A stretch of DNA of 64,000 nt from Verrucomicrobiota bacterium (GCA_016871755.1 VHCJ01000008.1:1-64000), one strand, 5' to 3'; positions 1-18,311 are shown, numbered from the stretch's first letter. The notes: a model not told the origin generated them from the sequence alone. Program-made: numbers and translations.

Positions 1-2
1 CG

Positions 3-1157: not shown

Positions 1158-1289
1158 ACAGCGTCGCCCGTGGAAACGGGGCGCGTATGCACAGCAATCA
1201 ATCCGAGAAGAAGGTGAGGCTTCCATCCCGGCCCAGCCTTGTTTCCCCGATCCACCCCTACCCCTGTCCCCCAATCCCGACGAATCACC

Positions 1290-4280
1290 ATGAACCACAG
1301 AACCACGATACGCGCCCTTCGCGGCAGCTTGTTCGCCATGGCCCTTGCTCTCTGGGTCACCTCTATCTTCGCACAAACTCCTCCGACCAGCCCGGGTGGA
1401 CGAGCGCAAGGACTCGTCTCCGGCCGCGTGTTGAATCAAGCAACGGGGCAGTATCTCATCGGCGCCTTTATTGCGGTGGAGGGTACGAGTACGACGGCGC
1501 GCTCGACGGCGGGCGGCGAATTCACGCTGACTGCGCCCGTCGGACCGCAGACGTTGCGGGTGGAGTACGCGGGTCTGGACACACAACAGGTTTCAGTGAT
1601 GGTACCTGAAACCGGGCGGGCTACGGTCGAGGTCCAACTCACAAGTCAGATCTACAAGCTTGAGGCCTTCACCGTTGAGGGAATTCGCGAGGGCGCCGCG
1701 CTTGCCGTCCAGCGCCAGCGCGAAGCGGAGAATGCGAAGACGGTCGTCGCGGCGGATGCGCATGGCGCTCCCGCCACGAATCCCGGGGAACTGCTCAGCC
1801 GCATTCCGGGCATCGCGGTCGACAATGTCTCGGACATCGGAGCCATTTTCGTGCGCGGGCTGGGGGCGGACTTCATTTCGGTGATGGTGGATGGAAACGA
1901 CGTCGCGACCGCGAACGTCGGAGCGGGATCCAGCCGCAATCCATCGATGCGGGCTCTCTCGACGGCCAATGTCGAGTCGGTGGAGTTGGTCCGCGCACCG
2001 ACCCCGGACATGCCGGCCAACGCCATCGGCGGTCAGGTCAACATGGTCAGTCGCCGTGGTTTCGACCGCCGTGAACGCCTGACGGAGTTCACATTCGGCA
2101 GCCGCTCCATTTTCCGCCCCGGGATGGAAGGCCCCCGCTACCGGGACCAATTCGCGCTCGATCAGGTCGTGTTCCGCTATGGCGACGCCTTCAGCGTGGC
2201 CGGGGGAGAGCGGAATCTTGGGGTGGACTTCACCGTCAGCCACAACGAGTCCTTCTTTTCCTCGAACGGTCTCGCCAACAGCGCGGCCTCGTACCTCTTT
2301 CCCACCGCAGCGAATGGGCTGCCGTCGACCCTGCAGCACAGCTTTGCCGTGCAGGAGTTTGCGGATCGACCGGTTCGTCTCCGGACCGTGGGCCTGAATC
2401 TCGACTACCGGCTGAGTGATCGCACGTCGGTCTACTGGCGCAACACCCTGAATGAGAATGGTCACACCGGAGTGGCGGGCAACGTGACATGGACCATGTC
2501 CACCGCCGCTTCGCCAGCGAGCTTTGCGCCTGGAAGCACGTACGATCAGCAGACGGCCCTCCCGCTCGCATCGTCGCGGAGCAGGTTGCTGTCCTCCCGC
2601 AGCGAGCGTCTCGACTCAAGCTATGCCACCTCCGCTGGCATCAGCCACCGCCTCTTCAACGACGAGTCCGGCCTGCTTGAGGCGGATGTGAACTTCTCAA
2701 ATATTGAGTCCGACGGCCGCATTGGCTCGAACGTCTCCGCAGAGGCCACCGGAGTGGGTTGGTCGCTGGACCGGCGCGGCGCGCCGGGCTGGTTTCCCCG
2801 CATCGCGCAGACAGCAGGGCCCTCGATCAACGATCCGGCGAGTTATCGCCTCACCACCCGATTCGACACGGACAACGTGGTGGAGTCGGAGCGGAGCGGC
2901 GCGCGAGTCAACTTCCGCAAGGACCTGAACCTAGCGGTTCCGGCCTACATCAAGGCTGGCCTGCGTTACGACGTGAACGAGGTCGAGGTGGACAACAACC
3001 GAGTGAACTACACCTACGTCGCCAACGGTGCTTCGGGCATCGCTTCGTTCATGGATCCGGAACGCCTCAAGTATCGGTTGACCAACGGTAACTACGGCCC
3101 ATTCCCGTTCCCCGTCCAGCCGACGACCGGCGGCAGCGGAGATCTCGCCACTCGTCCGGAGCTCTGGCGGCAGACGGCCGCGGATGCATACAACACTGTT
3201 CTGCAGTCGAAGAGTTCCGACTCCGTCTTCAACGAGACGATCGCGGCCGCTTACCTCCAATCGGGAGTGACCTTGGGTAAGCTGCGCGTGATGGGAGGAG
3301 TACGGGTGGAGCGGACTGACTCAGAGGGGCGCGCCTTTCAGACCAGTGCCTCGGCCGCCGCTGGAACGTCCTCGATTCCGACCCTGACACCCGAGGAGAA
3401 CCGGGCGCGTGCGAACAAGCGGTTCGCGGTGCCCATGCGCACGGTGGGGACGGATTACGTCGACGTGTTTCCTGGGATCCACCTGGTCTACGAGCCGAAC
3501 CGGCGCCTGCAGGTGCGCGCGAGCTACAACCGCTCGATCTCGCGTCCGCCGATCGGCTCGGTGCTGCCCAACAACACGGTCAGTGAGGACACCCAGGTGG
3601 TTACGGCCGGCAACCCGGACTTGCAGCCGTTTGCCGCCGACAACTTCGAGGTCGCAGTGCAGCGCTATTTCGAGCCCATCGGCCTCCTTGAGTTCAGCGT
3701 CTTTCACAAGGACATCACCGATTACTTCCGCACCATCGAGTCCACGATTGGCTCCGGACCCGACAACGGCTTCGACGGAAACTATGTGGGGTACATCCTC
3801 CGCCAGCCCGTCAACACGGGTGACGCGCGGATTCGCGGTTTTGAAATCGCGTACCAGCAGCAGTTCTCCTGGCTCCCGGGCGTCTGGCGCGGACTCGGGG
3901 CGTTCGCGAACTTCACCTACACCCAGGCGGAGGGTAACTTCGGCACGACGCTCTTCCAGAAGCAGCTGGCCAACCAGCGTCCGCGGACGGTGAACGCCGG
4001 CGTGTCCTATGTCGCCTACGGCTGGCAGCTGCGGCTTCTCGGCAACTGGGACGACCGCTTCTATCGGTCGGGGGCCGGAGCATCGTCCACCTATGCCGAC
4101 CCCCGGTTCATCCTCGATTTCAAGGGCCAGTACCGGATCAGCCAGCGTTACGAGCTGTTCTTCGAAGCCATGAACCTGACCAATGAGTTCGTCCGCACCT
4201 TCGTGCTGGAGAACGACATCAAGGCGAACTCGCTGCGGAAGGGCATCTTCGTGACCGCGGGCGTGAAGGTGTCGTTCTGA
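1290..4280 (+). CDS. TonB-dependent receptor with N-terminal regulatory-like domain
   Basis: This is an outer-membrane active transporter, 996 residues long, that uses TonB energy to import a large solute, probably a glycan fragment or glycoside. The ATG at 1290 was chosen because it starts directly on a signal peptide ending SIFAQ; a TTG at 1239 would add an unlikely prefix. Next come a carboxypeptidase-like regulatory domain (about residues 30-115, GRVLNQATGQYLIGAFIAVEG), a TonB-box-like LEAFTVEG near 130, a plug domain (LLSRIPGIAVDNV, FVRGLGADF) and a long beta barrel ending in the aromatic-terminal VKVSF. This architecture is typical of the numerous receptors in Opitutaceae. It lies 209 bases upstream of the thiolase operon on the same strand and probably supplies its substrate. 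No Shine-Dalgarno sequence is evident. Confidence 0.93.
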   Translation: MNHRTTIRALRGSLFAMALALWVTSIFAQTPPTSPGGRAQGLVSGRVLNQATGQYLIGAFIAVEGTSTTARSTAGGEFTLTAPVGPQTLRVEYAGLDTQQVSVMVPETGRATVEVQLTSQIYKLEAFTVEGIREGAALAVQRQREAENAKTVVAADAHGAPATNPGELLSRIPGIAVDNVSDIGAIFVRGLGADFISVMVDGNDVATANVGAGSSRNPSMRALSTANVESVELVRAPTPDMPANAIGGQVNMVSRRGFDRRERLTEFTFGSRSIFRPGMEGPRYRDQFALDQVVFRYGDAFSVAGGERNLGVDFTVSHNESFFSSNGLANSAASYLFPTAANGLPSTLQHSFAVQEFADRPVRLRTVGLNLDYRLSDRTSVYWRNTLNENGHTGVAGNVTWTMSTAASPASFAPGSTYDQQTALPLASSRSRLLSSRSERLDSSYATSAGISHRLFNDESGLLEADVNFSNIESDGRIGSNVSAEATGVGWSLDRRGAPGWFPRIAQTAGPSINDPASYRLTTRFDTDNVVESERSGARVNFRKDLNLAVPAYIKAGLRYDVNEVEVDNNRVNYTYVANGASGIASFMDPERLKYRLTNGNYGPFPFPVQPTTGGSGDLATRPELWRQTAADAYNTVLQSKSSDSVFNETIAAAYLQSGVTLGKLRVMGGVRVERTDSEGRAFQTSASAAAGTSSIPTLTPEENRARANKRFAVPMRTVGTDYVDVFPGIHLVYEPNRRLQVRASYNRSISRPPIGSVLPNNTVSEDTQVVTAGNPDLQPFAADNFEVAVQRYFEPIGLLEFSVFHKDITDYFRTIESTIGSGPDNGFDGNYVGYILRQPVNTGDARIRGFEIAYQQQFSWLPGVWRGLGAFANFTYTQAEGNFGTTLFQKQLANQRPRTVNAGVSYVAYGWQLRLLGNWDDRFYRSGAGASSTYADPRFILDFKGQYRISQRYELFFEAMNLTNEFVRTFVLENDIKANSLRKGIFVTAGVKVSF

Positions 4281-4489: not shown

Positions 4490-5674
4490 ATGAGTCTCAA
4501 GGGCCGTAGCGCAATCATCGGTTTCGGTGAGACCACCTTCGCCAAGGGAAGGCAATCGGGCGGCCGCTCGCACCTGAAGGAGCAGTGCACGGCCGCCCGG
4601 TTGGCGATTCAGGACGCTGGCATTGCGAAGGACGAGATCGACGGGCTCGTCGCCATCGGACCGCTCGACCACGGCTCGAGCTGGTCGATGGATCTCGCCG
4701 AGTACCTCCAGCTGCGGCCCACGTTCCTCGACACCCCTTACTTCGGAGGCGCGGCGGGCAACGCGGGGATCCTGCACGCGGCGGCGGCAATTCAAGCGGG
4801 GCTTTGCCGCACGGTGTTGCTCGTCGGAGGATCGGTCTCCCAGCCCGGCCCGCCCGCACCGTATGGCGTCGAGGATTCGGTGTCGTTCGAGCGTGACTTC
4901 GATACGCCCTTCGGCCCGATGGGCGACAATTCCGCCTATGCGCTGATCAAGCGGCGTTACCAGCATGAGTTCGGCGCGGGTGAGGAGGGCTTCGCCCAGG
5001 TGGTGGTGAATGCGCGGCGGCACGCGGGCCGTTTCGACAATGCGTTGCTGCGAGCCCCCGTGACGGTCGACGACGTGCTTCACTCCCGCTTGATCTGCGA
5101 TCCGCTCCGGATGTTCGAGATCGTGATGCCCTGCACGGGGGCGGTGGCCCTGGTCTTGACATCCGCGGAGCGCGCGCGGGACGCGCGCCAGAAGCCCGTG
5201 TACCTGCTGGGGGGCGGTCAGGCCATCGACCGCGGGATGTGGACTCCGGCTTACGGGCGGGACCCATCGCTGACCACGTCTCCGATCCGGCGCTCCGCCA
5301 GCGCGGCCTTTGCCATGGCGGGGGTCACCATCGCCGACATCGACTGCCTGCAGCTCTACGATTGCTACACGATCACGGTCATCATCGCCCTGGAGGACGT
5401 GGGCTGCTGTGCGAAAGGCGAGGGTGCTGCACTGGTGGCCGGAACGGACCTGACCGTGGGAGGCGACTTGCCGGTCAATACTGATGGGGGGCAGCTCGGT
5501 CGCGGCCAGCCTTATGGTGCGTGTCACTTCATGCCGGTCATCGAGACGGCGCGGCAGTTGATGGGCCGGGCGGGCCCGCTGCAGGTCGCGGGTGCCCGCT
5601 TCGGACTGGCCCACGGCAACGGCGGGGCGATGGCCAACCAGTGCACGTTGATCCTCGGCAACGAAATCCCGTGA
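4490..5674 (+). CDS. Thiolase-like protein (lipid-transfer/Ltp2 type, no nucleophilic Cys)
   Basis: This is a thiolase-superfamily protein of 394 residues in the SCP-x/lipid-transfer branch. The ATG at 4490 begins directly on the first strand, MSLKGRSAIIGFGETTF. Where biosynthetic and degradative thiolases carry the acyl-accepting Cys, this protein reads FGGAAGNAGILHA, so there is no nucleophile there. The second half has QLYDCYTIT, GGQLGRGQPYG and HGNGG, all typical of this branch. Relatives lacking the Cys, such as the steroid enzyme Ltp2, are retro-aldol lyases on beta-hydroxyacyl-CoA and work as a complex with a DUF35 protein. A DUF35 gene follows 36 bases later, so a CoA-thioester aldol lyase is the best guess. 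It is the first gene of a seven-gene operon. A true thiolase activity is unlikely. Confidence 0.85.
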   Translation: MSLKGRSAIIGFGETTFAKGRQSGGRSHLKEQCTAARLAIQDAGIAKDEIDGLVAIGPLDHGSSWSMDLAEYLQLRPTFLDTPYFGGAAGNAGILHAAAAIQAGLCRTVLLVGGSVSQPGPPAPYGVEDSVSFERDFDTPFGPMGDNSAYALIKRRYQHEFGAGEEGFAQVVVNARRHAGRFDNALLRAPVTVDDVLHSRLICDPLRMFEIVMPCTGAVALVLTSAERARDARQKPVYLLGGGQAIDRGMWTPAYGRDPSLTTSPIRRSASAAFAMAGVTIADIDCLQLYDCYTITVIIALEDVGCCAKGEGAALVAGTDLTVGGDLPVNTDGGQLGRGQPYGACHFMPVIETARQLMGRAGPLQVAGARFGLAHGNGGAMANQCTLILGNEIP

Positions 5675-5710
5675 AGCACTTCGCTTCACCAAACCGTCGA
5701 TGAACCCGCG

Positions 5711-6127
5711 ATGAGTGCGGACACACCTTGCGCCAAGCCCCTTCCGCAGATCCTTCCGGAGACGGCCGGATTCTGGGAGGCCGCGCGCCGCCACCGGTTC
5801 GTCGTGCAGCGTTGCACCGGCTGTGGTCGACGGCAGTACTTTCCGCGCGCGGTGTGTCACCACTGCCTCTCGGAGGCGCTGGCATGGGAGGAAGTCAGCG
5901 GGCGCGGCGTCATCCACAGCTTCACGATCATCCGTCAGGTCCAGCACGCGGGCTTCTCGTCGGATGTGCCCTACGTCTACGCCGTCATCGATCTGGACGA
6001 AGGATTTCGGATGATCGCGAACATTATCCGGACGCCCCCGGAGTGCGTCCGCGTCGGGCTTGCCGTGAAGGTTGCCTTTGCGGACGTGACGCCGGAGCTG
6101 ACGCTTCTTCAGTTCGAATCTGCATGA
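5711..6127 (+). CDS. DUF35 / OB-fold zinc-ribbon acyl-CoA partner protein
   Basis: This 138-residue protein has a rubredoxin-like zinc ribbon with cysteines 35, 38, 49 and 52 (CTGC then CHHC), followed by an OB-fold (GRGVIHSFTIIRQV onward). DUF35 proteins bind acyl-CoA and form complexes with thiolase-like enzymes: with archaeal HMG-CoA synthase/acetoacetyl-CoA thiolase, and with actinobacterial Ltp2, where the pair is the active aldolase. The gene lies directly after the thiolase-like gene, and its stop overlaps the start of the CoA ligase in an ATGA, so the three are very likely co-translated. All four zinc-ligand cysteines are intact. Confidence 0.9.
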   Translation: MSADTPCAKPLPQILPETAGFWEAARRHRFVVQRCTGCGRRQYFPRAVCHHCLSEALAWEEVSGRGVIHSFTIIRQVQHAGFSSDVPYVYAVIDLDEGFRMIANIIRTPPECVRVGLAVKVAFADVTPELTLLQFESA

Positions 6128-8313
6128 TGCCAACCCCAGAGATCACGTCCCAGTCGCAACGTTCGGCCGGTGGAAACCCGGCCGGATCCAACGCCGACCC
6201 GGAGCAGCTCATCTCGAACCTGCACCGCCTGTTGAATCCGCGCTCGGTGGCGATCATCGGCGTGTCACGCAACCCGGACAGCTTCGGATACCAATTCCTC
6301 GAGATCACGCAGCGCTGCGGCTACGTCGGGGACCTTTACCTCGTGAATCCGAAGGCGGACTCGATCCTCGGACTGAAGTGCCACGCCAGCGTGGGAGCGA
6401 TTCCGGGAGAGGTCGATGCGGCCGTGATCATGACGGCGCGCAGGTACGTGGGTGAGGCGATGGAGGACTGCATCCGGAAGGGTGTGAAAGGGATCGTGGT
6501 CTTCAGCGCCGGGTTTGCGGAGCAGGGGGACGAAGGGCGGCGGGAGCAGGACGTCCTCGTCGCCCGGGCGCGGGCGGCCGGCATCCGAATCATTGGCCCG
6601 AACACCCTCGGTTACTTCAGCGCTCCGGTGAGCCTGGACCTGATCATGACTGGGTTCATCCGCCCCGGCACAACGGCGTTGGTCACACAGAGCGGCAACC
6701 TGACCCAGTCACTCACCTTCCCTGGTGCGCAGCGGGGCCTTGGCTTCCGCTACGTCATTGGGTTGGGCAACCAAGCGGAGGTCGAGGTCCACGACCTCAT
6801 CCGTTATTGGCGGACCGACCCAGACACGACCGCCATTGCCGTCCACATCGAAGGGCTGAGGAATGGGAGGAAATTTCTTGAGGAGGTTCGAGCGACTGTA
6901 CCCAGCAAGCCGGTCGTGGTGGTGAAGACCGGGCGCACCGCCGCCGGTGCCCGCGCCGCCTCGAGTCACACGGCGTCGATCGCCGGTGACGACCAGATCT
7001 ACCAGGCTGCGCTGAGGCAGTGCGGGGCGATTGTCGTCGAGGAGTTCTCAAGGCTCACCTCGGTGCTGCTCGCTTTTCAGCAGGGCAAGAGGGCCCGCGG
7101 GCGGCGGGTGTGCATCATCTCGGAAGGGGGCGGCGACTGCGCGTTGGCGAGCGACGAATGCGTGCGGCAGGGCTTGGAAATTCCCACCTTCTCCCGCGCC
7201 CTACAGGAGAAACTCAGGGGGTTCCTGCCGGCGAACGCCGTGGTGACGAACCCGATTGACCTCGCGGGCTGGGAGGGGTTCGCCGAAGCGGCGGCGGCCG
7301 TGCTCGAGGACGATGCGGTGGATGGGGTGATCCTGGTCGGGGGCTTCGCGGGAAACTTCAACATCAATCCCCGGGACTGGGCCAAGGAGCAGGGCCATGT
7401 CGAGCGCATGTGCGACCTGATCAGTCGCTCGAGCAAGCCGGTGTTGATCTACACGTACTCGGGTTACAAGCCGAGTCCCTTCACCGAGACCTTGATCGCC
7501 CGCGGCGTGCCGCTTTTTCTCGATCACCACGATGCGATTCGCGCGATGGCGGTCTTGGCGCGGTACGAGGAAGTTCGTTGGCGGCTGGTGGGCCGCGGAT
7601 TCGCAGCCGGCCGGTCGCCGAGCGCGGAGTCCCAGAACCCTCATCCGGGCGACCCAGCCCCGCACGCATGGCTGGAGCCGGCCGCCAAGGAGTTGCTGCT
7701 GCGGCGCGGGCTGCCGTGTCCCCCGGAGTCCCTGACCGCCTCAGCTGACGAGGCGGTTGCTTGGGCGCAGGCCACGGGCTATCCGGTGGTGCTGAAGATC
7801 GTCTCGCCGGACATCCTGCACAAGTCCGAGGCGGGAGGCGTGAAGCTCGGCCTCCGGAGCGCCGCCGAAGTCCATGCCGCCTACCATACCATCATCGAAA
7901 ACGCGCGCCGCCACTGTCCGGCGGCGGCCATCACCGGCGTACTGGTGGCTCGGATGGACACGGATGACGGCGTCGAGGTCATCCTTGGCGGCGTGCGCGA
8001 CCCGGTCTTCGGCCCCGTGATCATGTTCGGCCTCGGCGGCATTTTCGTCGAGGTCCTCCGCGACGTGGCCTTCCGGGTCTGCCCGATCGACGTGGTGGAT
8101 GCGGACGAGATGATCCGCGAGATCCGTGGCTACGAGGTCTTGGCGGGTGCCCGAGGCGGCCCGCCGGTTGACTTCGCCGCGATCCGCGACGCGCTGCTGA
8201 AGCTTTCGCAACTCCTCATTGACCATCCCCAGATCGTCGAGATCGACCTCAACCCGGTTAAGGCGAAGGCCAACGGGCTGGCCGTTCTGGATGCTCGCAT
8301 CCTCGCCCGGTGA
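6124..8313 (+). CDS. NDP-forming acyl-CoA synthetase, fused alpha-beta subunits
   Basis: This 729-residue enzyme joins an organic acid to CoA with NTP hydrolysed to NDP and phosphate, or runs in reverse to make ATP. The start ATG overlaps the DUF35 stop (ATGA). Domains in order are a CoA-binding Rossmann domain (about 35-135, RSVAIIGVSRNPDSFGY), a succinyl-CoA-ligase-like domain (about 165-470) with the phospho-accepting His at 282 in SSHTASIAG, and an ATP-grasp domain (about 515-729, VVLKIVSPDILHKSEAGGV). The first 30 residues are a low-complexity lead-in. In this operon it probably loads a carboxylic acid onto CoA for the thiolase-like/DUF35 lyase. The acid is unknown, and the direction could be either way. 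Confidence 0.9.
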   Translation: MMPTPEITSQSQRSAGGNPAGSNADPEQLISNLHRLLNPRSVAIIGVSRNPDSFGYQFLEITQRCGYVGDLYLVNPKADSILGLKCHASVGAIPGEVDAAVIMTARRYVGEAMEDCIRKGVKGIVVFSAGFAEQGDEGRREQDVLVARARAAGIRIIGPNTLGYFSAPVSLDLIMTGFIRPGTTALVTQSGNLTQSLTFPGAQRGLGFRYVIGLGNQAEVEVHDLIRYWRTDPDTTAIAVHIEGLRNGRKFLEEVRATVPSKPVVVVKTGRTAAGARAASSHTASIAGDDQIYQAALRQCGAIVVEEFSRLTSVLLAFQQGKRARGRRVCIISEGGGDCALASDECVRQGLEIPTFSRALQEKLRGFLPANAVVTNPIDLAGWEGFAEAAAAVLEDDAVDGVILVGGFAGNFNINPRDWAKEQGHVERMCDLISRSSKPVLIYTYSGYKPSPFTETLIARGVPLFLDHHDAIRAMAVLARYEEVRWRLVGRGFAAGRSPSAESQNPHPGDPAPHAWLEPAAKELLLRRGLPCPPESLTASADEAVAWAQATGYPVVLKIVSPDILHKSEAGGVKLGLRSAAEVHAAYHTIIENARRHCPAAAITGVLVARMDTDDGVEVILGGVRDPVFGPVIMFGLGGIFVEVLRDVAFRVCPIDVVDADEMIREIRGYEVLAGARGGPPVDFAAIRDALLKLSQLLIDHPQIVEIDLNPVKAKANGLAVLDARILAR

Positions 8314-8328
8314 TCCACCCTCACTGCC

Positions 8329-9366
8329 ATGAAGACCATCGGACTTTACGGACGGAAGTACCTGGAGATCGAAGAGCGGGAGATGGAGGTGCGGTCCCCG
8401 GGCCACGAGGAGGTCATCGTCCGGGTGCTTGCCTGCGGCATCTGCGGCACCGACCTGAATTTTGTCCGGCAGTGGACGGGTCCGGCCATGGCGCTCGGCC
8501 ACGAGTTGGCGGGTGAAGTCGTCGAGGTCGGCCCTGGGGTCAGGACGGTCTCCGTCGGTGATCAGGTGATCGTGGAGGATTGCACCCTGTGCGGCACCTG
8601 TGCCGCGTGCAAGGGAGGCCGGCCTGATTTGTGCCGCACGATGTTCGGGCTGGAAGGTCAGTCCGGGATGGGACAGTACCTGTGTCTTCGGCACAACAGC
8701 CTGATCAAGTATGAAGGCCTCGAAGCCACGCACGCGTGCCTCACGGAGCCGCTGGCGGTTTGCCTCAACGCGGTGCTGGCGGCCCGCATCCCGTTCCAGG
8801 GCAGTGTGGCGGTCCTCGGCAGCGGCCCCCTTGGACTCATGACGGCGCGCGTCGCCAAGCTTCAGGGTGCGGGATTCGTCGCCTTGACCGGGGTCAATAC
8901 CCGGACCCCGCTGGGCCGGGCGCGCTTGGCGCGGGCGGAGCGACTGGGCTTGGACCGGGTCATAGACGCCGGTGAGTCGGGTTGGGAGAATGCGATCCGG
9001 GACGTCTGTCCTGGCGGGGTGGACCGCGTGATCGTGAGCTCGCCACCGGAGAGCATTAACGATGCGTTGAAGATCGTCGGCTACGGTGGCACGATCACGT
9101 TCTTCGGGCTGCACTTCGGCGGTCGGAACACGATCAACGTCGACATCAACGACCTCATCTTCCGCAAGGTCACGCTGCAGCCCTTCTTCGCGGAGCCTGC
9201 CATCAACTTCCACGGCGCGCTGGATCTGTTGAAGAAGGGGCTTGTCCCGGCGGCAGAGATAGTGAGCCACGTGCGCGGCGTGAAGGAGGCGCGCCGAACG
9301 CTGGCCGGCATCGTCGAGGGTGCTGAGCCGGTGATCAAGGCCGTCCTGCTTCCGCAGGACCACTGA
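8329..9366 (+). CDS. Zinc-dependent alcohol dehydrogenase (MDR family)
   Basis: This 345-residue medium-chain dehydrogenase oxidises an alcohol or polyol with NAD(P). The catalytic zinc site is visible: Cys37 in CGICGTD and the GHELAGEVVEVGPGV signature. A four-cysteine structural zinc lobe (CTLCGTCAACKGGRPDLC) follows. The nucleotide fold starts at VLGSGPLGLM near residue 165. It resembles the threonine/sorbitol dehydrogenase branch, but the substrate cannot be read from sequence. The gene starts 15 bases after the CoA-synthetase stop and 12 bases separate it from the amidohydrolase, so it is a mid-operon gene. Confidence 0.9.
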   Translation: MKTIGLYGRKYLEIEEREMEVRSPGHEEVIVRVLACGICGTDLNFVRQWTGPAMALGHELAGEVVEVGPGVRTVSVGDQVIVEDCTLCGTCAACKGGRPDLCRTMFGLEGQSGMGQYLCLRHNSLIKYEGLEATHACLTEPLAVCLNAVLAARIPFQGSVAVLGSGPLGLMTARVAKLQGAGFVALTGVNTRTPLGRARLARAERLGLDRVIDAGESGWENAIRDVCPGGVDRVIVSSPPESINDALKIVGYGGTITFFGLHFGGRNTINVDINDLIFRKVTLQPFFAEPAINFHGALDLLKKGLVPAAEIVSHVRGVKEARRTLAGIVEGAEPVIKAVLLPQDH

Positions 9367-9378
9367 GACGATCTTCGC

Positions 9379-10422
9379 ATGACGACAGAACCGTCCCGAC
9401 CCATGAGCCCGCGTTCCCTGCCGCCGGGCGCCCGGATTGATTGCCACACCCATATTGGCTTCGATGCGCTTTTCTACCTCCAAGGTTGGTCCCCGTACTG
9501 CCTCGACATTCCGCGGCTGTTCCTCGAGGCCGAGCAGGCCGCGATGGACGCGCTGATCGTCTTTCCGTTCATCTCGTACCTTGGCTTGGATCAGGAGGCG
9601 TTGCTCCGCAACCGCATCGAATTGCCGGAGTCGTCGCGCGTCACGCCCTACGAGTTCGAGAACCGCCGGCTCTGCGAGGAAATCCAGCAGCAATCGCCTG
9701 AGCAGCGCCGCCGACTCTGGCCGTTCCTGATCGCAGATCCGGGCCGCCGGCAGGCGCGCCAAGTCGAGTCGTGGCGGAGACTCCCCGCGGATTACGTCGT
9801 GCATGGGATCAAGATTCAGGGCACGATCATCCAGTCGAAGGTGATCCGGCTTCTGGATGAGGGGTCGTGCATCCTCGACTACGCGGAGGAGCATGACCTG
9901 CCGCTGCTGATTCACTCGAGCATCAAGCCGAGTGATGAGTGGTCGCAGTGTGTCGACCTGCTGCGCGTCGCGGAGGCCCGGCCGCGAGTCCGGTTCATTC
10001 TTGCGCACTCCTGCCGTTTCCACCTGCCCAGTCTCCGGCGGGTGGCGGAGCTTCCCAACGCCTGGTTCGACTGCTCCGCGCACGTCATTCACTGCGAGTG
10101 CGCGGCGTCGAACCTGCCGGCAGTGGCCGTGCCGGCGGAGCGGTTCCCGACCGACTACTCATCTCCCGAGCGGGTTCTCCACGACCTTGCCGAGGCGTTT
10201 CCGGACAAGCTCGTCTGGGGCAGCGACGCCCCGTATCACTCGATTCACTACGAGCACGTGAAGCTCAAGAGTTCCTACCGCCGCGAGGTGGAGTGCCTCG
10301 ATGCGCTGCCGGCCGACCTGCGGGACCGGGTTTGTCGCCGCAACACGCTGGCGTGGCTGGGCCGCGCTGACCGGTTGCCGGGCGTTGAAGCCCCGGCGCT
10401 GTCCCCGGAGGCTGCGCCATGA
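9379..10422 (+). CDS. Amidohydrolase family protein (amidohydrolase 2 type)
   Basis: This 347-residue TIM-barrel metal-dependent hydrolase or decarboxylase has the first metal-binding pair in CHTHIG near residue 23. Further candidate ligands are in LLIHSS and ILAHSCRFH, and a catalytic Asp lies in VWGSDAPYHS. Members of PF04909 include lactonases, decarboxylases and hydro-lyases acting on hydroxy or aromatic acids; few cleave amides. In this operon it may open a lactone or ring before CoA activation. Its stop overlaps the symporter start (ATGA at 10419-10422), which indicates translational coupling. The exact reaction is unknown. Confidence 0.85.
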   Translation: MTTEPSRPMSPRSLPPGARIDCHTHIGFDALFYLQGWSPYCLDIPRLFLEAEQAAMDALIVFPFISYLGLDQEALLRNRIELPESSRVTPYEFENRRLCEEIQQQSPEQRRRLWPFLIADPGRRQARQVESWRRLPADYVVHGIKIQGTIIQSKVIRLLDEGSCILDYAEEHDLPLLIHSSIKPSDEWSQCVDLLRVAEARPRVRFILAHSCRFHLPSLRRVAELPNAWFDCSAHVIHCECAASNLPAVAVPAERFPTDYSSPERVLHDLAEAFPDKLVWGSDAPYHSIHYEHVKLKSSYRREVECLDALPADLRDRVCRRNTLAWLGRADRLPGVEAPALSPEAAP

Positions 10423-12221
10423 GCATGGCACCGCTGGACTGGTCGATTGTCGTCCTTTCCCTGGCGATCTGCTTCCTGCCGGCCCTGCGCTTTGGACGAC
10501 AGGCGGGCTCAAGCACCGCGGAGTTCTTCGTCTCGGGCCGGTCAGTGCCGTGGTGGCTGGCCGGTCTTTCGATGGTGGCCACGACGTTTTCCACGGGCAC
10601 GCCCCTGCTGGTCACGGACATGGTGCGTCGGCAGGGCGTCGCCAGCAACTGGGCGCTGCTCGCGTTTGCGCTCACCGGGGTGGTCACGATCTTCTTCTTC
10701 GCCCGCCTGTGGCGACGTTCCGGGGTGATGACCGATCTCGAGTTCTACGAACTTCGGTACTCGGGTCGTGCGGCGGGTGCCGTGCGCGGTTTCCGGGCGG
10801 TCTACCTCGGACTGTTCTTCAATGTTCTGGTCATGGCTTCGGTCAACCTTGCCGCCTGCAAGATGGGGGCCTTGCTCTTTGGCTTCACCATGTGGGAGAC
10901 GCTCGCGGTGTCGGGCCTGCTCAGCGTGATTTTCGCGGCCTACTCCGGCCTGTGGGGCGTTCTGGTGATCGACCTGATCCAGTTGGTCTTCATGATGGCG
11001 GCAGTCACCGCAGGCGCCTATTTCGCCCTGCAGGCTCCCGGGGTCGGGGGCCTGTCCGGCATGGTGGAGAAGCTTTCCGCCAGCAGCGCGGCGGGAGGGA
11101 TCGACTACCTCGCGTTCCTGCCCGACTTCTCGAATCACTGGGACATCGCGGTGGCGGTGTTCATCATGCCTCTGGCGGTCCAATGGTGGGCCGTGTGGTA
11201 TCCTGGCGCGGAACCGGGCGGGGGAAGCTTCATCGCGCAACGCATGCTCGCGTCAAAGTCGGAGAGGGACTCGATCGGCGCGGTCCTCCTGTTCAACTTC
11301 GGACACTACGTCTTGCGTCCCTGGCCGTGGATCATCACGGCACTGGCCTCGTTGATCGTGTTTCCGACGCTGGCGGACATCCAGCGTGAGTTTCCCCACG
11401 TGGAGGCGAGGCTGGTGCATCACGACATTGCCTACGTGGCGATGTGGAAGTTCCTGCCGGCCGGCTTCCTTGGTCTTATGGTCGCGGGCATGATCGCTGC
11501 ACATTCCAGCACCATCACGACCCTGCTGAACTGGGGCGGCAGCTATCTGGTGCATGACTGCTACCGACGCTTCGTCCGTCCCGTTGCTTCGGAGAGGCAC
11601 TATGTGTTCGTCGGCCGGCTGATGACGCTCTTGCTGTTCCTCCTCTCCTGCCTGCTCACCGCCGTTCTGGAGTCCGCCAAGGGCAACTTCGAGATCATGC
11701 TGCAGATCGGGGCCGGCACGGGCCTCCTGTACCTGCTCCGCTGGTATTGGTGGCGGATCACGGCTTGGTGCGAAATCGTCGCGATGGTGAGTTCGTTCGC
11801 GATCTCGCTCGTGCTCTTCGTCCTTGAGCGGCAAGGAGTGGTGGGGTTCTCCACCCACCAAAAGCTTCTGATCACGGTCGCCGTGACCACGGCCTGCTGG
11901 GTGGCGACGGCCTATCTGGGCCCGCAGACCGATCGGGCGGCGCTGATTGAGTTCTGTCGGCGGGTCCGGCCGCGGGGGCCGGGTTGGGGAGCGATCCGCC
12001 GCGAGGCCGGGATCGATGAATCCGGCTCGGGCGACAGCCTGCCCCTCGCGCTGCTGGGTTGCTCCCTCGGCTGCGCGACGATCTGGGCCGCGATGTTTGC
12101 GATCGGCAGTCTCTGCTACGGCCGGATCGGCCTCGCCGCGGGCCTCACCGCGATCACCGTTGCGGCGGGTGCGGGACTGGTGGGGGTGGTGCGGCGGGTG
12201 ATGGACGCCTCGCCGCGGTAG
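10419..12221 (+). CDS. Sodium/solute symporter (SSS family)
   Basis: This inner-membrane transporter of 600 residues has many hydrophobic helices and couples Na+ entry to uptake of a sugar, polyol or organic solute. The N-terminal helices with [15 protein letters not shown] and [13 protein letters not shown] match the SSS signature region. A second in-frame ATG lies two codons downstream. It is coupled to the amidohydrolase by an ATGA overlap and followed 17 bases later by the NagB-like gene, so it is probably the inner-membrane partner of the TonB receptor at 1290-4280. A run of histidines or long tail is absent; the C-terminus ends in extra helices (from about residue 540). Confidence 0.92.
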
Positions 12222-12238
12222 AGGAAGCCCGACTTTCT

Positions 12239-13174
12239 ATGGCACGCAAACTCAGTTCGATCGCACCTGATTGGTGGGATTACACCACGCTCGACCGAGC
12301 CTTGCTGGAGGAGGCGGCGCGGCTCACGCCGGGCGACATGGCCGGCCTCTCTCGCGAGGGATTCGAAGTCGTGTTCTACGACACGCTGGAAGAGTTCTAC
12401 CTGGCCGAGGCGCTGGAGTACATCGAAGCATGGAGGCAGTCCACCCCCGATAATCCAGCCGGCATCTGCGGCCCCATTGGGCCGACCGAGCAATTACCGC
12501 TCGTCGCTCGTCTTGTGAACGAGCTCGGTCTGTCGCTCCGTGATGCGCACTTCTGGGGAATGGACGAGTGGTTCGACGTTGCGACGGGGCGCGAGGTTCC
12601 CGTCACCCATCCGCTGTCCTTCGAGCGGGCGGACCGCGAACTGTGCTTCAACCGAATTAGACCCGAGCTGGCGATCCGGGAGCAGAACCTTCACTTCCCG
12701 AAGGCGGACCTCGCCGCCTACCGGCAGAGCTGGCAGGGCGTGCGGTGCGTGGTGATGCAGGGCGGGCAGGGCGACATCAAGCACTGGGCCTTCAACGATC
12801 CGGTCAGGCGCGAAGGACCCTACCGTGACGCGCCGCCCACGTCAGCGGAATTCCGACGTCTGGCCACCCGGATCGTCGATCTGCACCCCGTGACCCTCTC
12901 GCAAAACGCGCGGACCTCCGGTGGGGGCAACATATCGTTGGTACCCACCAAAGCGATCACGGTCGGCCCCGCCGAGACATGGCTCGCTGAAAGGGTCTCG
13001 ATCTGGCAGGCGGGAATGCACGACAGCCCGTTCGGGCAGCGCCTGACGACCCTGATGATCAGCAAGGGAATTGCCGACAGCGCCGTGCCCATGTCGCTGC
13101 TCGCCGAGCACCCCAACGTTCGTTTCAACTTCTACCGCGGCGGCATCGGGACGTGTCAGGTGGAGATGCATTGA
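12239..13174 (+). CDS. NagB-like glucosamine-6-phosphate isomerase/deaminase homologue
   Basis: This 311-residue protein resembles glucosamine-6-phosphate deaminase/6-phosphogluconolactonase-fold proteins. The ATG at 12239 has a good ribosome site, GAGGAA, 12 bases upstream, overlapping the symporter stop. NagB landmarks are present but altered: [10 protein letters not shown] (Asp109, Glu110) for the usual NMDEY, and [11 protein letters not shown] (Asp179, His182, Asp187) for DGHIAFNEP, which inserts one residue between Asp and His and swaps Glu for Asp. [12 protein letters not shown] matches the later conserved segment. It may deaminate or isomerise a different aminosugar or keto-sugar phosphate. 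It is the last gene of the operon, and lacI faces it 9 bases away. Confidence 0.78.
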
Positions 13175-13183
13175 GACGGCGGG

Positions 13184-14212
13184 TCATTTGCCAACACCGC
13201 GTGGTGTCGCCTCAGGCAGGAGTTCGTCATGGCTCCACAGGCCCTCGATCAGCAGGGTTCGTGGCCGCTTGGGCACGCCGCGCTGATTGTGCTGCAGCAG
13301 CGAGACGACGCGGTCCACCGCTGCCTCGCCGATCACCTCGAAGTCTCGGCTCACTCCCGGCATCGGATGCGGAGCCTCGTCCACGTTGAGGCTCACGGCT
13401 GGCAACGACTGTGGAATCCTTCCCAGTTCCTCCAGACGCCAAGGATCGAGGCAGATGAGACAGTCGGGGCGCTCCCGGCGAAGCCATGGGGTCAGCGAGG
13501 GATCATCCGGATCCTCAACCAGCAGGGGTTCGATTGCATCGGCGCCCCGTGTCGATCGTTGCTCGGCCAGATAGGCCGCGTACCAAAGGTCGAACGTCAC
13601 CGAACTCACGTTGCGGTCGAGAAAGAGCCCGATCCGCCGGTACCCCTTCTCGCGGCAGCGGGCCAGCGCCAGCTTCATGCCGTGAAAGTAGTCGTGCGAG
13701 ATGCGATCGAGGTCGGGTCGCCGCACCGAGTAGCCCACCGAGACGACGCTGAAGCCCTGCCAGTCGAAGACCGGAAGAACCGCATCCTTGATCGGCATCG
13801 GTGCCACGATGATGCCGAGGATGCCCCGCGCCTCGAGAATCTGTTTCAGCCGCCCCGCCTTGAGCTGCGGCTCGTGCATCCAGAACGGCTCCAGGGCGTA
13901 GCCGATCTCGCGGGCGCGGGCGCGGGCGCCGTCGAAGAGGTCTCCATACGCGGGGGTAAACCGGCGCCAGCCATCCCGAGTGGGATGTCCGGTGAGGAAC
14001 GCCAAGGTCGCCTGGAAGCGGCTCCGTCCCCGCCGCCGGGTCGCCATCAGCGCAGCCACCAGGGGGTTGGAAACGTAGCCAAGTCGGGCCGCCACGGCGC
14101 GGACACGCTCCCGCGTCTCACTGGGAATGCCCGGGCGCGACCGCAGGGCGAGCGAGACAGTCGCGCGGCTCACCCCGGCTGCACGCGCCACGTCGTTCAT
14201 GGTGATTTTCAT
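13184..14212 (-). CDS. LacI-family transcriptional regulator
   Basis: This 342-residue repressor or activator has an N-terminal helix-turn-helix (residues 3-50: TMNDVARAAGVSRATVSLAL, then the hinge-proximal LGYVSNPLVAALM) and a periplasmic-binding-protein-like sensor domain to the end. It lies between two convergent or divergent groups: the uptake/CoA operon on one side (9-base gap, tail to tail) and the exported oxidoreductase group on the other (126 bases, head to head). Its start codon abuts a motif also found upstream of the TonB receptor, so it probably autoregulates and controls both groups. The inducer is likely a sugar or sugar phosphate, which is inference. Confidence 0.93.
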   Translation of the reverse strand: MKITMNDVARAAGVSRATVSLALRSRPGIPSETRERVRAVAARLGYVSNPLVAALMATRRRGRSRFQATLAFLTGHPTRDGWRRFTPAYGDLFDGARARAREIGYALEPFWMHEPQLKAGRLKQILEARGILGIIVAPMPIKDAVLPVFDWQGFSVVSVGYSVRRPDLDRISHDYFHGMKLALARCREKGYRRIGLFLDRNVSSVTFDLWYAAYLAEQRSTRGADAIEPLLVEDPDDPSLTPWLRRERPDCLICLDPWRLEELGRIPQSLPAVSLNVDEAPHPMPGVSRDFEVIGEAAVDRVVSLLQHNQRGVPKRPRTLLIEGLWSHDELLPEATPRGVGK

Positions 14213-14338: not shown

Positions 14339-15796
14339 ATGAGGCCCCACTCTGACCCCGGACGACGGCGGTTCTGCACCACCACTGCCTGGGCGGGCGT
14401 GGCCGGCCTCGCCGCGCCGCTCCTGCGGCCCTCAGGGTCGTTCGCGGCCGCCGCGGGGCCCGGGGCCAATGGTCGGCTGCAGCTTGGGTTGATCGGCTGC
14501 GGCAAGCAGGGTCCGCTTGTGCTCGCTCGTGCCGCCCTGCACCCGGACGTCGTCGTCACGGCCGCATGCGACGTCTACCCCGAGCGGGCGAAGGCGGTCG
14601 TGGGGATCCACCCGCGAACTTGCCGGGCTTTTGCCGACTATCGTGCGTTGCTGGCTTCGCCGGCGGTCGACGGGGTGATCATTGCCACGCCGCCCCATTG
14701 GCACGCGCTGATGGCCATCGATGCCATGGAGGCGGGCAAGGATGTCTATCTGGAGAAGCCGATGACGTTGTATCCCGCCGAGGATCTTGCGCTTCGGAAT
14801 GCGGCGCGCCGCACCGGTCGCATCTGCCAGATTGGCACCCAGTTCCACGCGTCCGACAACTACCGGCGCGCTGTCGAGACGGTGCGGGCGGGTTTCCTGG
14901 GCGACATCGCCACCGTGCGCTCGTTCCACGTCCTCAACCGCGGCCGCGCGGGGGTCGGTCGGCAGGATCCCTCGACGCGCGCCCCGGCTGGAGTCGACTG
15001 GAATCTCTGGTGCGGTCCAGGACCGCTCGTTCCCTTCAACCGCATCTTGGCCGACGGTTCGGGAAACGGCAACTCGTGGGTCTCCTACAGCGGGGGATGG
15101 ACGATGGGAATGGGCTCCCACGTGCTGGATCTCCCAGTCTGGGCGCTTGAACTCGGCTACCCTTCCGAGGTCTCCTCCTGCGGCGGGCGCTTCATCGTCG
15201 AAGACGACGGTGACGCCTATGACAACCACGAGGTGCTCCTTCGCTACCCAAAGCGGTTGGTCTCGTGGAAGACATCCCTCACCAACAGCTACGGTTTCGA
15301 CCTGCACGGGCGCCCGGTCCGGAACCGGCGCCTTGGAACATACTTCCACGGCACCCGGGGCACCATGTGGTGCGACTACTACGCCAACCGCATCGTGCCG
15401 GAGGGTGATGCGATGGACGACTGCATCAAACCCGAGGTCGCAGCGGTAAAGCAGGCGCCGGGCTACCCGCATCGAGTCGTCTACAGCGCCGCGGATCTCA
15501 AGCCCGTCTCCGCGAGGATCCCGTCGTCACCCGGTCACGAGTTTGAGTGGATCGAATGCATGAAGACGCGGCGGGAGCCGAGTTGCTCGCCGGAATACCA
15601 CAGCCGCATCAATCTGCCGCTCGTCCTGAGCCTGCTCTCGCTGAAGCTGGGGCGTTCGCTGCGACTTGACCCCGAGACACAGCAGATCATCGGCGATCCC
15701 GAGGCTACGCGGCTTTCCGTCCCGGAGTACCGCGCACCGTGGAGGTTTCCCGATCACTCGCTCGCGTCCGCAATCCACCCTCCCGCCCGCTCATGA
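14339..15796 (+). CDS. Tat-exported Gfo/Idh/MocA oxidoreductase
   Basis: This 485-residue NAD(P)-dependent oxidoreductase is probably exported folded through the Tat system: the N-terminus carries GRRRFCTTTAWAG followed by a hydrophobic stretch. The Rossmann domain starts at LQLGLIGCGKQG, and the family signature Glu-Lys-Pro is present in YLEKPMT near residue 140. The C-terminal alpha/beta domain runs to the end. Such proteins in Verrucomicrobia oxidise sugars or cyclic polyols in the periplasm with tightly held cofactor. It is the first gene of the group divergent from lacI, and its stop overlaps the next start (ATGA). Confidence 0.9.
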   Translation: MRPHSDPGRRRFCTTTAWAGVAGLAAPLLRPSGSFAAAAGPGANGRLQLGLIGCGKQGPLVLARAALHPDVVVTAACDVYPERAKAVVGIHPRTCRAFADYRALLASPAVDGVIIATPPHWHALMAIDAMEAGKDVYLEKPMTLYPAEDLALRNAARRTGRICQIGTQFHASDNYRRAVETVRAGFLGDIATVRSFHVLNRGRAGVGRQDPSTRAPAGVDWNLWCGPGPLVPFNRILADGSGNGNSWVSYSGGWTMGMGSHVLDLPVWALELGYPSEVSSCGGRFIVEDDGDAYDNHEVLLRYPKRLVSWKTSLTNSYGFDLHGRPVRNRRLGTYFHGTRGTMWCDYYANRIVPEGDAMDDCIKPEVAAVKQAPGYPHRVVYSAADLKPVSARIPSSPGHEFEWIECMKTRREPSCSPEYHSRINLPLVLSLLSLKLGRSLRLDPETQQIIGDPEATRLSVPEYRAPWRFPDHSLASAIHPPARS

Positions 15797-16701
15797 AACG
15801 AGATCCAGAGTCCACGGTTTTCTCCCGACGCCGCTTTCTTCACCACGCTGGCGTCGCCGCCGCCGGAGCCACGGTTGCCGCCTTTGCCCGGGCAGCCGCT
15901 CCGCGTCCGACCTATCAGATCGGTGCCTACACCCGCGCATGGGGAATGCGTGACTACCGGGTGGCGCTCGATGGAATGGTCGCAACCGGCTACCGGCACG
16001 TCGGTCTCAGTGTTCATGGCCCGCAGGGCAAAATGGCGCGGGTGATTGACCGCAACAGCGCCGATGAGCAGGCCGACGCGGTGGGGCGGGAGGTGAAGTC
16101 GCGCGGTCTCGGTCTCGTCGTGCTTTCGGGGGGCGAGTTCGAGATCAACAAGCCCATTCAGGAGGGGGCCGCGCAGCTGCGTCGCGTCGTCGATCTCGCC
16201 GTGATCTGCGGTGCACCTTGCGTGCAGGTCAACGAACCGTCGAAGACCGAGGCCGACCCCGTTTTCTACCGCGTGATGGCCGATTGCGCGGACTACGCCG
16301 CCGAGAGGCAGGTTGTCCTCACGGTTCATCCGCATGGGTTCTCGGGCGCTCACATCCGGCGGCAGCTGCGGATGGTCGGCGATCCGAACATTCGGATCAT
16401 GTACGATCCAGGGAACGTGGGGTTCTACTCGCATGGCGGCATCGACCTCGTGGACGACTCCGCGGCTTTGGACGGCGTCGTGCATGGCATGTCCGTGAAG
16501 GACTTTCGTCTTGAGCCGAGGGATGTGATGATCACGCCGGGAACCGGCCAGGTCGACTTCGCGCGCGTGCTCGCCCGCCTGCGGGCGGGGGGGTTCACCA
16601 AGGGCCCTCTTTCCGTCGAGTGTCTGCAGCCCGGCACTCTTGAGCAGGTGAACGAGGAAGCGCGCCGCGCGCGCCGCCTCGTCGAGGAACTCGTCGCTTG
16701 A
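15793..16701 (+). CDS. Tat-exported sugar isomerase/epimerase (TIM barrel)
   Basis: This 302-residue protein is of the xylose-isomerase-like TIM-barrel family (AP-endonuclease-2 fold). The ATG at 15793 overlaps the previous stop (ATGA) and starts directly on a Tat signal, FSRRRFLHHAGVAAAGA. Conserved segments include VQVNEPSK, LTVHPHGF, IMYDPGNVGFY and LSVECLQPG, which carry probable metal ligands (Glu, His, Asp, Glu). It probably interconverts a keto- and an aldo-sugar or epimerises an oxidised sugar made by the flanking oxidoreductases. Substrate unknown. Confidence 0.88.
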   Translation: MKRDPESTVFSRRRFLHHAGVAAAGATVAAFARAAAPRPTYQIGAYTRAWGMRDYRVALDGMVATGYRHVGLSVHGPQGKMARVIDRNSADEQADAVGREVKSRGLGLVVLSGGEFEINKPIQEGAAQLRRVVDLAVICGAPCVQVNEPSKTEADPVFYRVMADCADYAAERQVVLTVHPHGFSGAHIRRQLRMVGDPNIRIMYDPGNVGFYSHGGIDLVDDSAALDGVVHGMSVKDFRLEPRDVMITPGTGQVDFARVLARLRAGGFTKGPLSVECLQPGTLEQVNEEARRARRLVEELVA

Positions 16702-16747
16702 GCCTTCCACCCGCCCTCGTTTCCTCCGCCCCCGCTTCTCTTCCCCC

Positions 16748-18169
16748 ATGAAAACCAACCGTCGCCAGTTCCTCAAGACCACGGGCCTCGCTGGCCTTGG
16801 CATCACCGCCGTTCCCGCCGCTGCGCACGCGTCCTCCGGCGTCACCGCCAAAGCGCCCTTCAAGCAGGCCCAGCCGCAGCGCTTCAACATGCACGGCTAT
16901 GCCGCGCCCAAGCTCCCGATCGTCAGGATCGGACTCATCGGCATCGGCGACCGGGGAGGCGCCGCCCTTCAACGCCTGATCAAGATTGAGGGAGTGCAGA
17001 TCACGGCGCTTGCGGACGTCAAACCGGAGGCGGTGAGCCGCGGCGTCGCCATCGTGAAGGCCCGCGCACACAGTCCCGCAACCTACTCGGGCGGTGCAGA
17101 GGATTGGAAGAAGCTGTGCGATCGCAGCGATGTCGACCTCGTCTACATCTGCACGCCTTGGCTTCTGCACACGACGCAGGCCGTCTATGCCATGGAGCGG
17201 GGCAAGCACGTCGCGCCGGAACTCCCCGTCGCCCTCACGATCGAGGATTGCTGGAAGCTGGTCGAGACGTCGGAAAAGACGCGCCGACACTGTATCGTTC
17301 TGGGCAACCAGTGCTTCAACTCGTTTGAGCTGCTCACGCTGAACATGGCCCGGCAGGGCTTCTTCGGAAAGCTGGTCCACGGCGACGGCGCTTACAGCCG
17401 CAACATGCTTCCGATCAAGTTCCGCAAGGAAAAGCTCTGGTTCTTCGAACGCGACATCGACCGGATCGGCGCATTGTACAACATCCACGGAATTGGTCCC
17501 ATCGCCCAAAAGATGGAGATCAACTGCGGCGACCGCATGGAGTACATGAGTTCCGTTACCGGGGACGACTTCACCATGGGTGAGAAGGTCAAGGAGATGG
17601 CCGCGCAGGATCCCTTCTGGCAGCCGTACGTCGGACGCAGGTTCAACGGGAATATGACGACCTGCATCGTCCGCACCGCCCGGGGCCGGACCATGATGTT
17701 TCAGTACGATCACTTCTCGGCGCGTCCGGCGACGAAGGTCCATCTCATCAGCGGCACCAAGGCACTGGCCATGATGGAACCTCCTCCTTCCCGCTTCTAC
17801 ACCAACGAGAAGGATCGCTGGCTGACGGATCAGGAGTATCAGGCACTCGTCGCACAGTACACGCCCGAGATCTCAAAGCGTGTCGGAGCCATGGCGGAGA
17901 AGGTCGGCGGAGGCACCGAGTACTATCATGGCGGTATGGACACCGTCATGGACTGGCGCATGATTGATTGTCTGCGTAATGGGCTACCCGTTGAGCAAAA
18001 CGTGTACGATGCCGCCTCTTGGAGCGCGTTGATCGAGCTGACCAGTTGGTCGTCGAGCCATCGGGCGCAGTCCGTAGACGTGCCCGACTTCACCGGTGGC
18101 GCGTGGAAGACCAATCGTCCGTTGATGGACCTTGCGCTCACGACCGGCGGCACGACGCGCTTCGTCTAG
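16748..18169 (+). CDS. GH109-like Gfo/Idh/MocA protein, Tat-exported (possible NAD-dependent glycosidase)
   Basis: This 473-residue protein has a Tat signal (TNRRQFLKTTGLAG) and a Rossmann domain (VRIGLIGIGDRGG). The usual Glu-Lys-Pro is replaced: GKHVAPELPV, as in glycoside hydrolase family 109, which reads Glu-Val-Pro there. Further GH109-like stretches are CWKLVETSEKTRRHC, LNMARQGFFGKLVHGDGAY and NIHGIGPIAQ. GH109 enzymes hydrolyse alpha-N-acetylgalactosaminides by transient NAD oxidation, so this may be a periplasmic glycosidase instead of a dehydrogenase. It lies 46 bases after the isomerase. The GH109 link rests on recalled family features and needs a profile search. Confidence 0.8.
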   Translation: MKTNRRQFLKTTGLAGLGITAVPAAAHASSGVTAKAPFKQAQPQRFNMHGYAAPKLPIVRIGLIGIGDRGGAALQRLIKIEGVQITALADVKPEAVSRGVAIVKARAHSPATYSGGAEDWKKLCDRSDVDLVYICTPWLLHTTQAVYAMERGKHVAPELPVALTIEDCWKLVETSEKTRRHCIVLGNQCFNSFELLTLNMARQGFFGKLVHGDGAYSRNMLPIKFRKEKLWFFERDIDRIGALYNIHGIGPIAQKMEINCGDRMEYMSSVTGDDFTMGEKVKEMAAQDPFWQPYVGRRFNGNMTTCIVRTARGRTMMFQYDHFSARPATKVHLISGTKALAMMEPPPSRFYTNEKDRWLTDQEYQALVAQYTPEISKRVGAMAEKVGGGTEYYHGGMDTVMDWRMIDCLRNGLPVEQNVYDAASWSALIELTSWSSSHRAQSVDVPDFTGGAWKTNRPLMDLALTTGGTTRFV

Positions 18170-18287
18170 TCAAGCGCGTCAGACCGAGCATCTTTGCTCC
18201 CGAGGGATTGGCGGCGGATTTCCGTGGACGGGGTCCACCCCCGCGTGTTCCGCTGGCGATCGTCGGCCAAGCCGGATCGTGGCCCTT

Positions 18288-18311
18288 CCCCGCGCTCCGG
18301 CAAACGCGGGG
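18288..18311 (+). terminator. GC-rich hairpin between oxidoreductase genes
   Basis: A perfect 7-bp inverted repeat (CCCCGCG/CGCGGGG) with a 10-base loop lies 118 bases after the GH109-like gene and 56 bases before the next start. No T-run follows. It may attenuate read-through into the gene at 18367. Confidence 0.25.

Follow-up and report, generated by a model that had tools for sequence, protein, structure and literature searches.

The retro-aldolase complex CtSal-CtShy of Comamonas testosteroni, which acts on bile acids, pairs the thiolase-like protein CtSal with the DUF35 protein CtShy (PDB 9MYR; PMC12329534). Catalysis by CtSal depends on Tyr302 and Cys304, with Gln347 and Gln352 in a presumed supporting role, and a Gly is found at the thiolase nucleophile site (PMC12329534). 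The characterised aldolases of the Sal and Ltp2 types act on steroid side chains. Here we report the analysis of a seven-gene operon (positions 4490-13174, plus strand) within a 64,000-nucleotide stretch of a Verrucomicrobiota genome (GCA_016871755.1 VHCJ01000008.1:1-64000, hereafter the window), which encodes a thiolase-like protein, a DUF35 partner, and an ADP-forming coenzyme A (CoA) ligase, followed by a dehydrogenase, an amidohydrolase-2 family (AH2) protein, a Na+ symporter, and a NagB-like protein. We tentatively favour the reading that the operon is a substrate-specific catabolic route of two modules, in which a hydroxy acid would be activated with CoA and then cleaved by a retro-aldol reaction.

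An earlier, sequence-only reading of this DNA had described the seven genes as one tight run, and all seven open reading frames (ORFs) were confirmed at their positions and strand, with the same gaps and ATGA overlaps: the spacing along the operon is 36, -4 (ATGA), 15, 12, -4 (ATGA), and 17 bases. Six of the seven gene names are backed by Pfam and NCBIfam models (Pfam only for the amidohydrolase). A scan of the intergenic regions, in itself weak evidence, found neither a consensus promoter nor a terminator-like site.

By its residues, the thiolase-like protein appears to be an aldolase of the Sal type, not of the Ltp2 type. Among solved structures it is closest to CtSal itself, chain A of 9MYR (E 1e-67, 36% identity over the aligned length), and in the alignment with CtSal the residues Y290-D291-C292-Y293, Q335, Q340, and G87 all match; Y150 and R200 were marked as further residues. 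The protein had been called Cys-less, which is correct for the nucleophile site, where the Cys of SCP-2 thiolase is replaced by Gly87, but not for the YDCY motif, whose Cys292 corresponds to Cys304, an essential residue of Sal. It had also been likened to Ltp2, a label better changed to Sal because TcLtp2 has YDHF and Tyr344 where the window protein has YDCY and Gln340. Among the other verrucomicrobial relatives in our residue table, the motif is of the thiolase type (HDAF/HDCF) or different again. The window protein and its relatives from loci L074 and L075 (L numbers denote the loci fetched for comparison) form, in a maximum-likelihood tree, a clade of the Planctomycetes-Verrucomicrobia-Chlamydiae (PVC) group with support 100/100, which is placed as sister to CtSal and four plasmid homologues with support 89/87. 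The beta4-alpha4 segment, which in CtSal holds the steroid-contacting loop, has 30 residues in the window protein versus 43 in CtSal; a steroid would therefore be unlikely to fit this aldolase.

The two adjoining genes agree with this assignment. The DUF35 protein, which has a C4 zinc motif (C35-x2-C38-x10-C49-x2-C52), is in turn closest among solved structures to chain B of 9MYR (E 4.6e-24), and thus the best solved matches of aldolase and DUF35 partner are the two chains of one complex. The ligase has the marks of an ADP-forming acyl-CoA synthetase, namely the CoA-binding, flavodoxin-like ligase, and ATP-grasp domains and the SHT histidine, His282, which is kept in the motif SHTASIAG starting from residue 281. 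Of the proteins with solved structures, the ADP-forming 4-hydroxybutyrate- and 3-hydroxypropionate-CoA ligases come nearest to it, and it scores far under the NCBIfam cut-offs for the equivalogs of these two enzymes. The Sal residues, the likeness of the DUF35 protein to the Sal complex, and the likeness of the ligase to hydroxyacyl-CoA ligases together lend support to the proposal, made already in the sequence-only reading, that CoA activation would be followed by retro-aldol cleavage.

Two modules make up the operon, and they recur independently of each other: module A, comprising the thiolase-like, DUF35, and CoA ligase genes, and module B, comprising the dehydrogenase, AH2, and Na+ symporter genes with or without a NagB-like gene. 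In what follows, the genes neighbouring the query in fetched loci were called with a simple script, identity figures are from local or multiple alignments, and statements of absence cover the sampled genomes. A contig scan with the window thiolase, which used short exact-type patterns and so picks up close relatives only, found L073, L074, and L075. The paralogous locus L074 contains the end of a TonB receptor gene (C-terminal part 85% identical to that of the window), a DUF4838 gene, and then the thiolase (87% identical), DUF35 (67%), and ligase (76%) genes. The previously suggested link to outer-membrane uptake gains from this locus, where the same kind of receptor adjoins the triad with the DUF4838 gene lying between them. 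This DUF4838 gene (L074:410-2460) looks frameshifted (ORFs 410-994 and 823-2460); a DUF4838 remnant was looked for between the TonB receptor and the thiolase of the window and was not found, and a DUF4838 gene considered in L075 was dropped as it had no Pfam match. L075, from another PVC metagenome-assembled genome (MAG), encodes a ligase, thiolase, and DUF35 protein that are 56%, 68%, and 50% identical, respectively, and in L083 (Rhodospirillales) the three genes stand in the window order at 32-34% identity. Among 388 genomes sampled from the phylum and 273 from the order, a window-type thiolase was clearly present in the window's species alone; in the sample drawn around the genome of L075, it was clearly present in that genome alone. 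L073 (VHCY01000169.1) is 99.93% identical to window positions 1-5684, while the enoyl-CoA hydratase (ECH) region of its MAG matches the window's genome at just 71% DNA identity; for this reason L073 is probably a misbinned contig, L074 may likewise be misbinned, and the idea that these loci represent a sister strain was rejected.

More distant relatives place module A-like genes in other settings. On the Sulfitobacter and Shinella plasmids (L125 and L128), a Sal-type aldolase is accompanied by OB-fold (oligonucleotide/oligosaccharide-binding), MaoC, and acetoacetate-CoA ligase genes, surrounded by genes for a sugar ATP-binding cassette transporter, a short-chain dehydrogenase (SDR), and a class II (fuculose-phosphate-type) aldolase. 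Since Sal-type genes adjoin sugar genes there, the steroid link of the Sal/Ltp2 type is seen in the characterised proteins and not in the gene neighbourhoods. A related thiolase/DUF35 pair in Proteobacteria (L080) is clustered with Rieske dioxygenase-like genes (names by sequence reading), and proteobacterial relatives of this kind have YDD[FY], not YDCY.

In module B, the zinc-dependent medium-chain dehydrogenase (MDR) has L-threonine 3-dehydrogenases as its nearest solved relatives. Searches of solved structures with the AH2 sequence gave no match; the metal ligands HxH, H, H, and D are retained in the alignment, and in VIA-align comparisons an AlphaFold2 model of the protein (pLDDT 84.8) matched COG3618 amidohydrolases and PDC (2-pyrone-4,6-dicarboxylate) hydrolases at Z 21-22 and aromatic decarboxylases at Z about 20. 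A lactonase function, suggested by this model, is a lead, not a result. AH2 relatives with 34-63% identity are present in many genomes of the phylum, and of 20 fetched stretches around them the SDR family occurs in 15, the symporter family in six, and the NagB-like family in five. One of these loci, L119, from the window's own family, has the gene order FGGY kinase, DeoC/LacD aldolase, NagB-like, AH2, SSS symporter, and Gfo/Idh, with no CoA enzyme; its NagB-like protein is 26% identical to that of the window. As a separate observation, Opitutaceae AH2 relatives in L105-L124 recur with IclR, class III aminotransferase, MlrC-like, RidA-like, SDR, and DSD1/threonine-aldolase-like genes, a set that appears to be an as yet unnamed catabolic cluster (names other than SDR and SSS by sequence reading).

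The NagB-like protein has no match to a Pfam or NCBIfam family, and its structure model (pLDDT 57) is too poor for use. Its earlier identification as NagB-like stands to the extent of a remote link: a profile of close orthologues reached glucosamine 6-phosphate (GlcN6P) deaminases with E 9e-4 alone and with E 4e-18 after distant NagB-like members were added, and the motifs MDE and KHWAFNDP compare with H-x-AFN[DE]P of these deaminases. Orthologue matches of some kind occur in 71 of 208 genomes of the class, many at 65-83% identity, and a PIG-L de-N-acetylase stands beside the orthologue in 12 of 20 sampled loci (L053-L072); the remaining six genes of the window operon were not found at these class loci. 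The orthologue group probably represents an undescribed amino-sugar step, and by sequence it is a different group from the NagB-like proteins of the AH2 sugar operons. The link between the aldolase pathway and NagB is weak, and an acylated aminosugar is no more than a conceivable substrate.

The metabolic context of the host narrows the routes by which the substrate of the aldolase could arise. The window's genome is 97.4% complete and has no match to the acyl-CoA dehydrogenase family (PF02771), whereas the same search was positive in 10 of 14 control genomes; its one ECH and one MaoC protein are encoded on other contigs, outside the operon. A route of the beta-oxidation type for steroids or fatty acids, with dehydrogenation and hydration, is therefore unlikely in this host, and the simplest source of a 3-hydroxyacyl-CoA would then be the direct activation of an acid that is already hydroxylated.

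From what is observed, namely the order of the genes, their domains and catalytic residues, the fact that module A recurs, and its co-occurrence with a TonB receptor, the following route can be proposed. A compound would enter by the TonB receptor and then by the symporter, and the dehydrogenase and hydrolase would release or make a carboxylic acid bearing a C3 hydroxyl. The ligase would form its CoA thioester, converting ATP to ADP, and the aldolase/DUF35 complex would cut the C2-C3 bond, with Tyr290 as the base and Cys292 as the acid, to give an aldehyde and a short acyl-CoA. As no dehydrogenation or hydration step is needed, such a route is in keeping with a genome in which no acyl-CoA dehydrogenase was detected. 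A probable role of the NagB-like protein would be to process an amino-sugar-like component of this diet; otherwise it may be a recruited extra. In a more specific version, which we consider unlikely as a whole, the MDR would make a lactone by oxidation of a sugar or sugar derivative, AH2 would open it, the ligase would make a 2,3-dihydroxyacyl- or 2-deoxy-3-hydroxyacyl-CoA, and the aldolase would yield a shorter aldose and glycolyl-, N-acylglycyl-, or acetyl-CoA. If true, this would be a sugar-acid route in which retro-aldol cleavage takes place on a CoA thioester, not on a phosphorylated keto-acid.

Several points weigh against the two-module pathway. It rests on sequence, the activities of all the proteins being predicted; the oxyanion-hole Gln161 of CtSal is Asp146 in the window protein; the sister placement to Sal (89/87) lies under the strict support line of the tree tool; the AH2 fold is nearly as good a match for decarboxylases as for lactonases; in the genome of L075 the symporter (SSS) had no match and AH2 a marginal one; and the complete seven-gene set was not found elsewhere in the samples searched, although the contigs of the close relatives L073, L074, and L075, at under 6 kb, are too short to settle the matter. 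The plasmid Sal-type relatives L125, L126, and L128 have Ala at the position of Gln161, which is thus a feature of CtSal and no strict mark of the Sal family. Within the searchable data the seven genes are not conserved as one set. The earlier view of a single conserved pathway finds no support, in view of L075 and of the other partners of the NagB-like gene; of the gene set that it sought beside a TonB receptor, the triad recurs (L074, L075, and L083), with the receptor at L074.

That single pathway, with import of an acylated aminosugar or glycoside whose acyl part would pass through ligase and aldolase and whose amino sugar would pass through NagB, is in our view improbable. It would account for the tight run of seven genes, for the TonB receptor common to the window and L074, for the GH109-type protein downstream, and for the existence in the family of sugar operons with AH2, NagB-like, and symporter genes (L119), and an amino-sugar role is plausible because of the PIG-L neighbours; against this, the NagB-like orthologue is never found with the thiolase in the class sample, the locus has no deacetylase, the esterase-like ORF upstream has no Pfam match, and the whole set was not found elsewhere in the samples. 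Somewhat better placed, though still rather unlikely, is a mosaic of two or three unrelated modules joined by gene gain, with nothing in common but a promoter and a broad inducer. The separate distributions and partners of module A, module B, and the NagB-like gene speak for it, as does the presence of module A in the L075 genome without a symporter or a clear AH2 match, but the ATGA overlaps and gaps of 12-36 bases run throughout, across the module border as well, and the TonB receptor is co-inherited with module A.

An aromatic side-chain route, by which a free or ester-bound hydroxycinnamate is activated, hydrated, and cut to a benzaldehyde and acetyl-CoA with AH2 as a decarboxylase, finds some footing in the Rieske-like neighbours of the L080 pair and in the decarboxylase fold match; we judge it quite improbable, given that the operon has no hydratase, that the single ECH and MaoC of the host lie elsewhere, and that the proteobacterial proteins carry the other motif. 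Degradation of bile-acid or sterol side chains, as in the known Sal and Ltp2 systems, is suggested by the sequence resemblance of the pair to CtSal and CtShy, and yet is very improbable in a host without an acyl-CoA dehydrogenase match, with a loop shorter by 13 residues, a DUF35 protein not fused to a MaoC hydratase, and a C4 zinc motif where Shy has C3H1. Even more remote is a forward reaction, in which the aldolase acts as a C-C bond-forming synthase (Claisen/aldol or Friedel-Crafts-type) like the biosynthetic PhlACB: PhlC- and hydroxymethylglutaryl-synthase-type complexes among the matches share the thiolase/DUF35 architecture, but the operon has uptake genes and no third subunit like ketosynthase III, and the active site is a retro-aldolase set.

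Features of the operon and its surroundings (strand relative to the window)
Feature	Position	Strand	Basis and remarks
TonB-dependent receptor	1239..4280, probable start 1290	+	Plug, beta-barrel, and CarbopepD_reg domains; upstream of operon
Sal-type retro-aldolase (thiolase-like), predicted	4490..5674	+	PF22691, Thiolase_C_1
DUF35/ChsH2-type Zn-ribbon OB-fold partner	5711..6127	+	PF12172 and PF01796 (zf-ChsH2 and OB_ChsH2_C)
ADP-forming acyl-CoA synthetase, single chain	6124..8313	+	PF13380/PF13607/PF13549 (CoA_binding/Succ_CoA_lig/ATP-grasp_5)
Zn-dependent MDR dehydrogenase, threonine/polyol dehydrogenase-like	8329..9366	+	ADH_N and ADH_zinc_N
Amidohydrolase-2 family metal hydrolase (AH2; lactonase/decarboxylase fold)	9379..10422	+	PF04909 (Amidohydro_2)
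SSS family Na+/solute symporter	10419..12221	+	PF00474 (SSF); TIGR00813 score under its cut-off
NagB-like protein, class-wide orthologue	12239..13174	+	MDE and KHWAFNDP motifs; no Pfam family
LacI-type regulator	13184..14212	-	PF00356; convergent with operon, divergent from next gene (14339, +)
Neighbouring cluster: Gfo/Idh/MocA, xylose-isomerase-like TIM barrel, GH109-type, Gfo/Idh/MocA	14339..19764	+	PF01408, PF01261, PF21252

The TonB receptor upstream of the operon likely serves in substrate uptake. The window starts at base 1 of its contig, where the view upstream ends; an ORF at this contig start (15-935), upstream of the receptor, has an alpha/beta-hydrolase-like look and no Pfam match, and it might be an esterase. 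On the other side, the genes at 14339-19764 probably form a separate adjacent sugar cluster, and the LacI-type regulator may act on this cluster rather than on the seven-gene operon. The GH109-type protein of the cluster (16748-18169; PF21252 and GFO_IDH_MocA) stands beside two Gfo/Idh/MocA proteins and the xylose-isomerase-like protein.

If the favoured two-module pathway is true, the Sal-type family would reach non-steroid, possibly carbohydrate-derived substrates, and the locus hints at an undescribed use of the family in sugar-type catabolism. The YDCY motif, the Gln pair, the short loop, and the adjoining ADP-forming ligase provide a search signature for other phyla, and the enzyme set is small, defined, and open to assay. 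The kinds of enzymes are known, and their combination and probable substrate class are undescribed in the open-access literature searched, which yielded no papers on a thiolase/OB-fold pair in Verrucomicrobia, on DUF4838 in Verrucomicrobia, or on retro-aldol cleavage of sugar-acid CoA; a paper on a piperine amidohydrolase makes no mention of a thiolase, a DUF35 protein, or an aldolase.

Compared with CtSal-CtShy, the window pair shares the Tyr/Cys dyad, the Gln pair, the Gly at the nucleophile site, and the DUF35 partner, and differs in that its DUF35 protein is a stand-alone C4 protein without a MaoC hydratase, the steroid loop is shortened, Gln161 is replaced by Asp, the surroundings are of the TonB/sugar type, and the host has no acyl-CoA dehydrogenase match. 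The actinobacterial sterol C3 side-chain aldolase TcLtp2-ChsH2(DUF35) (PDB 6OK1) likewise combines a thiolase fold with DUF35 and a catalytic Tyr, and is set apart by its YDHF motif and Tyr344. With the 3-hydroxypropionate- and 4-hydroxybutyrate-CoA ligases (PDB 9Y43 and 8WZU; Nitrosopumilus enzymes, PMC11494057), the window ligase has in common the ADP-forming superfamily and the phosphohistidine chemistry that would go with it, unlike them in its scores against their models. The Opitutaceae-type AH2 sugar operon (L119) has AH2, SSS, and NagB-like genes side by side as in the window, and is without thiolase, DUF35, and CoA ligase. Finally, although the Sulfitobacter and Shinella plasmid clusters include a MaoC hydratase, have a ligase annotated as acetoacetate-CoA ligase, and list no TonB receptor, they resemble the window in combining a YDCY aldolase (40-42% identical), a DUF35 protein, and a CoA ligase near sugar genes.

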